Shown here in pieces: positions 973-3,395 of a stretch of 64,000 bases of DNA (its first letter is position 1; every line of letters starts with the position of its first letter). The translations under genes were made by a program, and so were the position numbers. The stretch comes from Zhongshania marina (GTDB lineage: Bacteria > Pseudomonadota > Gammaproteobacteria > Pseudomonadales > Spongiibacteraceae), in assembly GCF_002915595.1 (NCBI RefSeq), contig NZ_PQGG01000006.1, positions 1 through 64,000 on the forward strand, written 5' to 3'. The notes beneath the pieces were generated by a model. The model saw nothing but the letters and a program-made list of their open reading frames with translations, was not told where the DNA came from and did no database searches.

Positions 973-1893
973 AAGTACTTGTATTATTGGTTGACAACTG
1001 AAGCTAAAAAGTACGTTTACTCAGGTATGGGTAATCCGAAGCTAATGAGTCATCAGGTTGAAAAAATTGCAGTCCCCATTCCATGCCCAGATAACCCAGA
1101 AAAATCACTGGCAATACAAGCTGAAATAGTGCGTATTCTGGACGCATTTACCTCCATGACCACCGAGCTGACCGCCGAGCTTAACATGCGCAAAAAACAA
1201 TACAACTACTACCGTGACCAGTTGTTGAGTTTTGAAGAAGGTGATTTTGAATGGATGACCCTAGGTTATGTCACAAAAAAATGGTACTCAGGTGGTACAC
1301 CTACTGCTGGAAAGCCTGAATTCTACGAAGGCGGCAATATTCCTTGGTTGAGAACTCAGGAAGTGAAGTTTTCTGACGTATCTGAAACTGAGGTATTTAT
1401 AACGCCAGCTGCGTTGAAAAATTCATCAGCCAAATGGATTCCAGAAAACTGTGTAATAATTGCTATCTCTGGAGCAACTGCTGGAAGATCAGCAATTAAT
1501 AAGATTCCACTAACAACAAATCAGCACTGTGGATGTTTGGAAATCGACGATAAAAAAGCCCTATACCGATACGTCTTTCATTGGGTTAGTTTCAATTATG
1601 AAAACATAAAAGCTTTAGGACAAGGTGCAAGAGGAGATCTAAATTCGACAATCATTAAGAACTTTAGGTTACCTGTTCCTTACGCAAATGAGCCTGAGAA
1701 ATCATTGGTCGAGCAGGCGCGAATTGTAGCGATATTGGATAAATTCGACACCTTAACAACTTCCCTGCAAGAAGGTCTCCCACGCGAAATCGAGCTACGC
1801 CAAAAGCAATACGAGTATTATCGTGAGCTGTTGTTGAGCTTCCCCCAATTCCCCTCCTCTGGAGGGGTGCCCGAAGGGCGGGGTGGTTCTTGA
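973..1893 (+). pseudogene. hsdS: Type I restriction specificity subunit HsdS, 5'-truncated by the IS element
   Basis: HsdS reads the DNA target for a type I restriction-modification enzyme and docks two HsdM subunits. The remaining frame enters directly from the IS end (KYLYYWLTTEAKKYVYSG) and keeps the end of the first recognition domain, the central conserved helix (RKKQYNYYRDQLLSFEE), the whole second recognition domain (GYVTKKWYSGGTPTAGKPEFY, IPWLRTQEV) and the C-terminal conserved helix (RQKQYEYYRELLLSF). A TTG at 979 is the first possible start but has no convincing ribosome site. The last 15 or so residues ([17 protein letters not shown]) are encoded by an inserted palindromic repeat, so the natural C-terminus is also altered. 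What remains is roughly a half-HsdS. Its stop overlaps the ATG of the next gene. hsdM is not in view. Confidence 0.88.
1847..1889 (-). repeat. Left 43-bp inverted repeat flanking the DUF559 gene
   Basis: This is a perfect 43-bp inverted match to 2246-2288. It holds two small palindromes: GCCC-GAA-GGGC and a CCCCTCC/GGAGGGG stem. It is translated as the tail of the truncated HsdS and ends 3 bp before the DUF559 ATG. Confidence 0.92.
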
Positions 1894-3395
1894 TGAGAAA
1901 AACCAATGCCTACAAATCGCTGCCTTACAATCCAGCCTTAAAAGATAAAGCTAAGGCTCTGCGCAAAGCCGGTATATTGCACGAAGCGTTGCTTTGGTTG
2001 GAATTAAAGTCAAATAAACTTAATGGATTAGACTTTGATCGTCAAAAAATTATTGGCAATTATATTGTTGATTTTTACTGTGCAGAAAAATCCGTTGTGA
2101 TTGAAGTTGACGGCAGTTCTCACGACGGTAAACAAGCGCAAGATGCTAAACGAGATGCTTACTTGAATGATTTAGGACTGACGGTAATTCGTGTTCTAGC
2201 AAAAGATGTTTTGCAAAATATGGATGGGGTTGTTGTGTTTTTAAGGAACCACCCCGCCCTTCGGGCACCCCTCCAGAGGAGGGGAATTATCCCGCCCTTC
2301 GGGCACCCCTCCAGAGGAGGGGAATTATCCCGCCCTTCGGGCACCCCTCCAGAGGAGGGGAATTATCCCGCCCTTCGGGCACCCCTCCGAGGGAGGGGAA
2401 TGATGAGATATAAGCCGCCTTTCACCCTTACCAGCGAAATCCTCAATTTAGTGGCAGAAATCAGCCAACAGGTGGGTGAATTAAATGCCAGCCAGTTGAA
2501 TGCATCATCCCAACTGCGCAAGCAAAACCGCATTAAAACCATTACAGGCACACTGGCGATTGAAGGTAATACGTTAACCGAGGAGCAAGTGACCGCCATT
2601 GTTGAAGGTAAGCCTGTGCTAGGTAGCATGCGCGAACTGGCCGAGGTAAAAGGTGCCATTGCGGCTTACGATGCACTTCCTACATTTACCCCTAGCGCCA
2701 TTGACGATTTACTTACTGCTCATGGCTTAATGCTGTCAGATATTTTTGCCAATGCGGGTGAGTTTCGCAGTAAAGGCGTGGGTATCCATAAAGGCGGTGT
2801 GGTGCATCACGTTACGCCGCCTGCCCATCAGGTATCCGGTTTAATGGCTGATTTAATTCAATGGCTCAAACAAACCAAAGACCATCCATTGATTGCCAGC
2901 TGTGTATTTCATTATGAATTTGAGTTTATTCACCCGTTTGCCGATGGTAATGGTCGCATGGGGCGACTATGGCAAACGCTGATTCTATCTAAATGGCAGC
3001 CCATCTTTATTAATATCCCGGTGGAAAGTTTGGTACACCAGCATCAGGAGGCGTACTACCTTGCTATCCGCAACAGTACCGCCCAAACGGATTGTTCGCC
3101 GTTTATCCGATATATGTTGCAGATGATACTGGATGCCATTGAGGACAGTACTTCCCGCCAGTTTGAAAATGCGGGTATAAGTGCAGGTATAAATGCAGGT
3201 TTAAAACTGTCGCCTCTGGATCACGCCATTCTAGAATTGATAAAAGCAGACCGCTATATCACAAATGCCATGCTAGCCGAACAGACAGGAAAGGCACTCA
3301 GTACCATTGAGCGCCGCATTAAAAAACTGAAAGAGCATTTATTTTTGAAACGGGTCGGTGCCAAGAAAACCGGACATTGGGAGGTTCTTTCGTGA
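1893..3395 (+). CDS. DUF559 nuclease-like domain joined in frame to a Fic AMP-transferase
   Basis: One open frame of about 500 residues starts at the ATG that overlaps the hsdS stop (TGATG). Residues 1 to about 118 are a DUF559 domain, related to Vsr-like and PD-(D/E)XK endonucleases: [27 protein letters not shown], then IVDFYC and [12 protein letters not shown] with the acidic and Lys/His-rich core. Residues about 119-169 are low-complexity and come from four tandem 38-bp repeats read in three frames ([13 protein letters not shown] and variants). The rest is a Fic protein, which also has its own ATG at 2400. Either a fusion or two proteins could be made. The DUF559 part resembles stand-alone proteins of about 120 residues, so the fusion may be secondary. 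The 3' end overlaps hsdR, so it belongs to the R-M operon. Confidence 0.8.
2246..2288 (+). repeat. Right 43-bp inverted repeat flanking the DUF559 gene
   Basis: This is a perfect inverted partner of 1847-1889. Together the two copies bracket a 442-bp unit (1847-2288) that contains only the DUF559 domain gene. This copy overlaps the first unit of the tandem array beginning at 2253. Confidence 0.92.
2253..2400 (+). repeat. Four tandem copies of a 38-bp palindromic repeat
   Basis: Units begin at 2253, 2291, 2329 and 2367. Each starts CCCGCCCTTCGGGC and continues with a CCCCTCC-AGA-GGAGGGG hairpin and AATTAT. The first three units are identical; the fourth has CGAGGG instead of CAGAGG and ends at the Fic start. 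Because 38 is not a multiple of three, successive copies are translated in different frames and only every third change in copy number restores the frame. Confidence 0.92.
2400..3395 (+). CDS. Fic-family AMP-transferase (independent start within the fused frame)
   Basis: Fic proteins usually transfer AMP from ATP to a hydroxyl side chain of a target protein. Counting from the ATG at 2400 (331 residues), the active-site motif [12 protein letters not shown] is at 178-189 with catalytic His178. An inhibitory-helix motif TLAIEGN is at 51-57 with Glu55, upstream of the Fic core, which is the class II self-inhibited arrangement. The C-terminal 80 or so residues look like a winged helix ([27 protein letters not shown]). 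AGGGAGGGG just upstream, from the last repeat unit, could serve as a ribosome site. The stop overlaps the GTG of hsdR, so the two are translationally coupled. The target is unknown. Confidence 0.85.

Follow-up and report, generated by a model that had tools for sequence, protein, structure and literature searches.

What is a small nuclease gene doing between two perfect palindromic repeats? The question is raised by a stretch of 64,000 nucleotides of Zhongshania marina (contig NZ_PQGG01000006.1), hereafter the window, whose positions serve as coordinates and in which a gene of the DUF559 family lies between hsdS and fic. The original prediction described this gene as bracketed by two perfect 43-bp inverted copies, each made of two nested palindromes, and read the unit as a possible mobile cassette. 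A repeat search of the window confirmed the description: the arms at 1847-1889 and 2246-2288 are 43 nt long and 100% complementary (43/43), and the DUF559 gene between them is intact. Comparisons with other genomes (L and G codes designate fetched loci and genomes) lead us to propose that the unit 1847-2288 is probably a copy of a small and widespread mobile element, made of an EDxHD/Vsr-like DUF559 nuclease and its cognate triplex-type palindromes.

Many DUF559 genes are bracketed by palindromes with a common grammar

We compared the 300 bp on each side of DUF559 genes, counted an inverted match at a score of 14 or more, and used shifted windows as control. Three sets were analysed: 101 genes from repeat-selected genomes, relatives and the window (S1), and 68 Bacteroidota (S2) and 70 Pseudomonadota loci (S3) chosen regardless of repeats, the latter two being the best-scoring matches in list order among the matches listed, not random draws. 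Domains of fewer than 86 residues and duplicates were dropped (S1 went from 109 matches to 101). Inverted flanks were found at 65/101, 35/68 and 45/70 genes of S1, S2 and S3, respectively, against 4/370, 1/258 and 3/278 shifted controls. Matching flanks in either orientation reached 75/101, 49/68 and 46/70 (shifted: 11/370, 5/258 and 10/278), and the shared arm held a hairpin with a C/G run in 56/101, 32/68 and 37/70 (shifted: 1/370, 0/258 and 1/278). A further control consisted of 26 Bacteroidota loci with GIY-YIG genes, four of 30 having been dropped as shorter than 3100 bp: one of the 26 had such a hairpin arm, and inverted flanks occurred in 5/26 versus 35/68 of the S2 DUF559 genes (p 0.005). 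The original prediction also mentioned repeat-derived tails of DUF559 proteins in unrelated bacteria, and such tails do occur. At the DUF559 loci of close relatives the strict window repeat is absent everywhere except at the window's own locus. Their DUF559 genes are flanked by other repeats with the same grammar, and seven of the eight strong DUF559 genes (E <1e-32) found in relatives independently of the repeat score 17 or more for inverted flanks.

The repeats that flank DUF559 have a common grammar: a C/G hairpin is followed by a third, G-rich block, the mirror image of the purine arm with T or A facing A. In the left arm of the window the hairpin is CCCCTCC (1851-1857), TCT, GGAGGGG (1861-1867); a mini-hairpin GCCC-GAA-GGGC follows (GCCCGAAGGGC, 1869-1879), and the third block, GGGGTGG (1880-1886), mirrors the purine arm. 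A mechanical check for the grammar, with blocks of 7 nt and one mismatch, recognises this arm; it was passed on both sides by 42/101, 26/68 and 24/70 DUF559 genes of S1, S2 and S3, against 2/185, 0/129 and 1/139 shifted windows, 0/239 shuffled sequences and 0/26 GIY-YIG genes.

At the level of sequence, this grammar is that of the published intrastrand-triplex motif BoxC/PIT/TM. According to Holder et al. (2015, PMC4666352), the E. coli motif (BoxC, PIT and TM_ECO being the same) has the consensus CCCTCNCCCN3-6GGGNGAGGGN3GGGNGAGGG, and triplex formation in vitro is reported there for TM_ECO, not for the window repeat. The BoxC/PIT/TM repeats are dispersed and C/G-rich, and have the hairpin and mirroring third block of the window repeat, which differs from TM_ECO in its 7-nt blocks and in the mini-hairpin that replaces the 3-nt spacer. 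By inspection the window arm differs from the exact TM_ECO consensus, and the 28 loci that match it include none covering the window. The exact consensus does flank some DUF559 genes: of the 462 loci fetched, 28 have it, and DUF559 is present in 27 of these; as the loci were fetched mostly for DUF559, this indicates presence and not enrichment. Of 398 Pseudomonadota genomes, 66 contain a TM_ECO-type pattern, the richest having 147 copies, and the reversed pattern, as control, gave one match among the matches listed. Pattern and DUF559 occurred together in 50 of these genomes, the repeat only in 16, DUF559 only in 60 and neither in 272 (p 2e-19, a value that ignores phylogeny). In E. coli RP437 (L462), a TM_ECO copy (2169-2203 of that locus) lies downstream of the DUF559 gene ycjD (1648-2001). 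The presence of ycjD between sapF and fabI is variable (L458, L461, L462): 3362 of 5426 E. coli genomes have a place where 80% or more of the region is covered, and in strain SBF22 sapF is followed by efflux genes instead.

The 26-mer core of the window repeat occurs in a single one of the 398 Pseudomonadota genomes, that of Z. marina, the other 397 being without it. A scan of species genomes found it in at least 118 stretches, which amount to 824 kb and hold 136 copies; the 80 listed come from Bacteroidota, Cyanobacteria, Chlamydiota and other PVC bacteria, Nitrospirae, Acidobacteria, Armatimonadetes, several proteobacterial groups and others. DUF559 was present in 10 of these 118 stretches, always at most 185 bp from a repeat. 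Among 50 of these genomes, hand-picked for diversity, 44 encode DUF559 at E 1e-10 and 27 encode it within 400 bp of a window-type repeat (up to five substitutions allowed), and the reversed 26-mer had no match in the 50. Viral contigs gave 12 stretches with the 26-mer, none of them with DUF559 by tblastn or profile. Whether the repeat occurs in bulk unrelated to DUF559, which would have counted against the original prediction, has a mixed answer: solo copies are many elsewhere, yet the relation to DUF559 is strong.

Protein and repeat co-vary in the 167 cassettes with readable arms. Pairs with an arm match of 16 or more made up 1-4% at less than 50% protein identity, 14% at 50-60%, 48% at 60-70% and 68% at 70-85%. 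The nearest-neighbour arm match was 13.97, versus 8.69 after permutation (standard deviation 0.35; largest of 500, 10.15). For each of the 12 cassettes nearest the window in protein (52-79%), the arm matches that of the window with a score of 20-40, and the next four score 6-13; these 12 span several phyla, and one of them, L303, belongs to the Bacteroidota sample, in whose choice the repeat played no part. In repeat-bearing genomes, DUF559 genes flanked by the window-type repeat numbered 13/14 at 50% or more identity to that of the window, 4/5 at 45-50% and 15/73 below 45% (p 4e-7). Nuclease and repeat are best read as a putative cognate pair.

Cassettes at unrelated sites and inside genes

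Sequence comparison identified cassettes at unrelated sites that have the cassette alone in common. Loci L246 and L247, from the same genome, have 548 aligned bp in common (96.6% over 552 bp), and both edges of the homology are the outer palindrome edges. Two other pairs, each within one genome (L330/L351 and L281/L285), have a common cassette whose edges lie at most about 25 bp from the palindromes. Between L004 and L021 (one genome), and between the window and L303 (different phyla), the outer left edge, AATTCCCC, is exactly where homology starts, and the alignments stop before the right repeat. Many further pairs have long flanks in common, as vertical inheritance predicts. The original idea of a nuclease that moves with its own palindromic ends is supported by these cassettes, from flank matches far above the shifted controls and from hsdS-fic junctions without DUF559 (see below); movement itself is what we infer from them.

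Cassettes were also found within genes. Fifty-eight of the 239 DUF559 domains are in frames of at least 300 aa. Pfam was run on 25 DUF559 frames, 24 of them of this length: 19 of the 24 had another domain and five had none. DUF559 has host domains before and after it in QueA, MetH, IleRS, LeuRS, a UvrD-type helicase, AsnB, and MmeI-type and ISP-type enzymes, and is near one end in SpoU, MurB, a GATase, a radical SAM protein and HsdM. A single methionine synthase (MetH) frame, in L165, contains two separate DUF559 domains. Piecewise scans showed that the host profile resumes past the insert in QueA (135-249 and 253-322), in the GATase_6 domain of AsnB (1-59 and 58-130) and in ISP (1-178 and 186-342). 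The insert in IleRS lies in the loop after FDSGAMPYAQ; in Bacteroidales, where 55 of 60 genomes matched, 30 loci were fetched and 29 other loci were aligned, this loop is short in 28 of the 29. One locus (L399) has a solo palindrome in frame at the loop position that the cassette occupies elsewhere. No protein-splicing (intein) domain was among the Pfam matches of the 25 frames. The arms of inverted-flanked cassettes are open in six frames in 51/145 cases and in at least four in 114/145. Because the majority of arms lack stops in several frames, the element can enter coding DNA without losing the frame, and so also lives inside housekeeping genes.

The nuclease and its relation to the repeats

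The cassette gene matched only DUF559 and, weakly, MTES_1575 in Pfam. A sequence search of PDB gave one match, the endonuclease-like protein 3hrl (E 1.3e-18). We built an AlphaFold model of the protein (pLDDT 88.7, 11 sequences), for which the fold search returned 3hrl first and then the homing endonuclease I-Bth0305I (3r3p, probability 1.00, E 5.6e-3), with weaker matches to Vsr (E 0.075 and 0.12). Several Toxoplasma mitochondrial ribosome proteins (9i05, 9g6k) also resemble the DUF559 fold in this search. Alignment mapping places putative EDxHD-type residues at E31, D60, D73, H77 and D84, and the counterparts of the catalytic residues proposed for Caulobacter VsrA, a DUF559 protein (PMC12907096), appear intact. 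For the cassette, neither Pfam on the window nor the fold search of the model gave a known transposase fold.

The element resembles several known systems in part. EDxHD homing endonucleases such as I-Bth0305I, and Vsr, are like DUF559 in predicted fold and in insertion into conserved genes, but the cassette has palindromic ends and no surrounding intron or intein. The window arms would suit the terminal inverted repeats of an insertion sequence or a miniature inverted-repeat transposable element, but the transposase fold is missing, and DUF559 flanks elsewhere are frequently direct, unlike classical terminal inverted repeats. The REP/RAYT REPtrons described by Di Nocera et al. (2013, PMC3733652) likewise consist of short palindromes flanking a dedicated nuclease gene, with solo copies; for the window repeat, flanking palindromes are present, and solo copies are none in its own genome and many in others. 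The original prediction named a REPIN/RAYT-like arrangement as one possibility; a REPIN/RAYT identity is rejected, because Pfam found no tyrosine (HUH) transposase and no GTAG abuts the foot of the arms; the DUF559 nuclease is of the PD-(D/E)XK/EDxHD type. DUF559 proteins are best read as mobility enzymes cognate to triplex-type palindromes, with a REPtron-like arrangement but no relation to RAYT transposases. Palindromes tolerated in frame within genes are likewise described for the Rickettsia palindromic elements and the CGTC REPs (PMC3733652). The latter have a CGTC end and are described there without a dedicated transposase, whereas DUF559 repeats pair with a nuclease gene and belong to another sequence class. 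Small GIY-YIG nuclease genes of Bacteroidota (L418-L447, e.g., L424, L427, L434, L441 and L443) are associated with a different palindrome class, with GTCA..(T/C)GAG cores, which stands on both sides of 5/26 GIY-YIG and 0/239 DUF559 genes; GIY-YIG could possibly be the nuclease of the CGTC-type REPs.

In the mechanism that we envisage, the DUF559 nuclease would recognise the folded repeat (hairpin plus third strand) and would nick or cut DNA at or near this structure or the target. As the break is repaired, the cassette, or else a solo repeat, would be copied to a new place, and solo repeats would be a non-autonomous form or remnants. A wider proposition, which we consider as plausible as its negation, is that DUF559, including E. 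coli YcjD, and the BoxC/PIT triplex palindromes make up a class of mobile elements, so far unrecognised and present across phyla, in which a homing-type nuclease of Vsr fold would recognise the hairpin-triplex and spread itself and, in trans, solo repeats, even in frame into essential genes. Holder et al. found no mobility function for these repeats, and the main text of that paper ties no gene to them, the terms "endonuclease" and "DUF" occurring 0 times (PMC4666352). In a search that reached few subscription papers and no bioRxiv-only preprints, titles and the openings of abstracts revealed no published link between DUF559 and palindromic repeats, so the novelty is provisional.

Several observations weigh against the mobile-element reading, besides the neglect of phylogeny in the association with TM_ECO-type repeats. 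Inverted-match brackets are missing at 36/101, 33/68 and 25/70 genes of S1, S2 and S3, and the direct match outscores the inverted one at 42/101, 41/68 and 31/70. GIY-YIG genes are matched on both sides, in either orientation, in 16/26 cases, with sequences that differ from the DUF559 repeats; part of these are tandem paralogues, and most lack the C/G-run hairpin. Six of the 50 genomes with the 26-mer have no DUF559 at E 1e-10, among them one with 19 and one with 31 copies of the repeat, and 23 of the 50 have no DUF559 within 400 bp of a window-type repeat. Similarly, 16 of the 66 TM-positive genomes have no DUF559 at E 1e-12, including genomes with 125 (G226, a partial genome), 48 (G382), 35 (G281) and 18 copies (G125). 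REP families have also been reported from species that lack their REPtron (PMC3733652), so the lack of DUF559 in repeat-rich genomes is not decisive. The gene ycjD has its repeat downstream only, with no match upstream, and the strict 7-nt triplex test misses this copy. The common cassette of L365 and L376 has its left edge inside, not at, the outer palindrome, and no target-site duplication was recognised by eye at the edges of the compared pairs.

Some of these points would suit a passenger model, in which the palindromes spread by other means (replication slippage, host repair or an unrelated enzyme) and DUF559 was caught between copies and moved by recombination between them. Repeats abundant in genomes without detectable DUF559, and inverted and direct flanks of roughly equal frequency, are what this model expects, and Holder et al. 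attribute the variation at TM sites to effects of replication and repair (PMC4666352). We nonetheless regard it as unlikely: the bracketing is specific to DUF559, with the triplex grammar on both sides of 26/68 DUF559 versus 0/26 GIY-YIG genes of the same phylum, and a passenger need be neither a nuclease nor matched to the repeat subtype, whereas protein and repeat co-vary. It is more doubtful still that DUF559 serves in repair or restriction as a Vsr-like nuclease, with the repeats as its targets or regulators (e.g., structures to be cleared) and mobility as incidental. Caulobacter VsrA has been linked to DNA damage in cells lacking a cytosine methyltransferase (PMC12907096), the window gene is part of a restriction-modification operon, and several host genes elsewhere encode restriction-modification enzymes. 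Yet such a role leaves unexplained both the cassettes in IleRS, LeuRS, MetH, QueA and AsnB and the cassette-only homology between unrelated sites.

The Zhongshania marina locus and its wider meaning

The features of the locus are given in Table 1. The gene does lie between two copies at the hsdS-fic junction, as originally described, but the locus holds five copies in total, the two arms being followed by three more in tandem before fic. The arm is stop-free in all six frames. The start codon of DUF559 (ATG, 1893) overlaps the hsdS stop (1891-1893). DUF559 has no stop of its own: its frame stays open across the right-hand repeats and into Fic, until the fic stop (3393-3395). DUF559 and fic (1893-3395) thus form a single open frame across four palindromes, and a DUF559-Fic fusion is possible. 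The last repeat places GGAGGGG right ahead of the fic ATG, where it resembles a ribosome-binding site. At up to two mismatches, CCCCTCCNNNGGAGGGG occurs at seven places in the 4.13-Mb genome, and all five exact ones are at this locus; no exact solo copy was found elsewhere in this genome, where PF04480 has its single match at the same locus. Rfam gave two matches on 1780-2460, far under the gathering scores and judged to be chance.

Table 1. Features of the hsdS-DUF559-fic locus, in window coordinates.
Feature	Position	Strand	Basis
hsdS, specificity subunit of a type I system, the left repeat recoding its 3' end	979-1893	+	open reading frame, PF01420, Shewanella baltica comparison
Left 43-bp repeat	1847-1889	+	repeat search, grammar test
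DUF559 nuclease gene, domain approximately 1938-2234	1893-2264	+	PF04480 (E 1.2e-31), alignment, model and fold search, open reading frames
Right 43-bp repeat, perfect inverted copy of the left arm	2246-2288	-	repeat search
Three extra tandem copies, 38-bp spacing, the last one more diverged	2284-2401	-	repeat search
fic, ATG at 2400 or 2403, directly 3' of the array, in frame with DUF559	2400-3395	+	PF02661

Junctions without the cassette do exist; a lack of such empty sites would have spoken against the original prediction. Two Shewanella baltica plasmids (L038, L039) have the order hsdM-hsdS-fic-hsdR without DUF559; an Aeromonas plasmid, whose gene table is incomplete, has hsdM-hsdS and hsdR, and no DUF559 was found there by profile. 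When fic DNA was searched in 96 relatives, all matches outside the window were short and weak, hence there is no near-identical empty site, and the S. baltica plasmids are the best substitute, although they are not near-identical relatives. The hsdS of the S. baltica and Aeromonas plasmids agrees with that of the window until ...GAGCTTC and diverges beyond. The claim that the unit overwrites the C-terminus of hsdS is correct in a narrow sense: compared with S. baltica, just the final few codons are lost, and residues encoded by the repeat stand in their place. The two S. baltica plasmids differ from each other at the 3' end of hsdS, one having another short palindrome, CCTGCCAGTCCGGCAGGCGGG, where the window cassette begins. 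A Serratia locus (L072) has the same hsdS-repeat-DUF559 junction as the window. Directly 5' of hsdS, an insertion sequence occupies 1-972 (DDE transposase at 84-959, 20-bp ends 95% complementary), and the remaining hsdS has 304 codons versus approximately 400 in the S. baltica plasmids. That the array is a mere recombination hotspot of a shuffled restriction operon, as the confinement of the repeat to this locus in Z. marina, the different palindrome at the same hsdS end of one plasmid and the interruption of the 5' side of hsdS might suggest, is very improbable given the repeat-gene-repeat units in unrelated settings of other phyla and the apparently intact proposed catalytic residues of the window protein.

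BoxC-type repeats have long been seen scattered through bacterial genomes without a known route of spread. If our reading is true, DUF559 would gain a role and this class of scattered repeats a mechanism, which would answer the question of BoxC-type dissemination. It would also explain why tRNA synthetases and other enzymes contain DUF559 domains, and would add a second, unrelated class of enzymes to the principle of REP/RAYT. Laboratory derivatives of E. coli K-12 carry ycjD (RP437) and the TM_ECO copy downstream, so the role is testable there. If GIY-YIG nucleases and the GTCA-type palindromes are a parallel pairing, then a small nuclease with a cognate palindrome would be a general principle.

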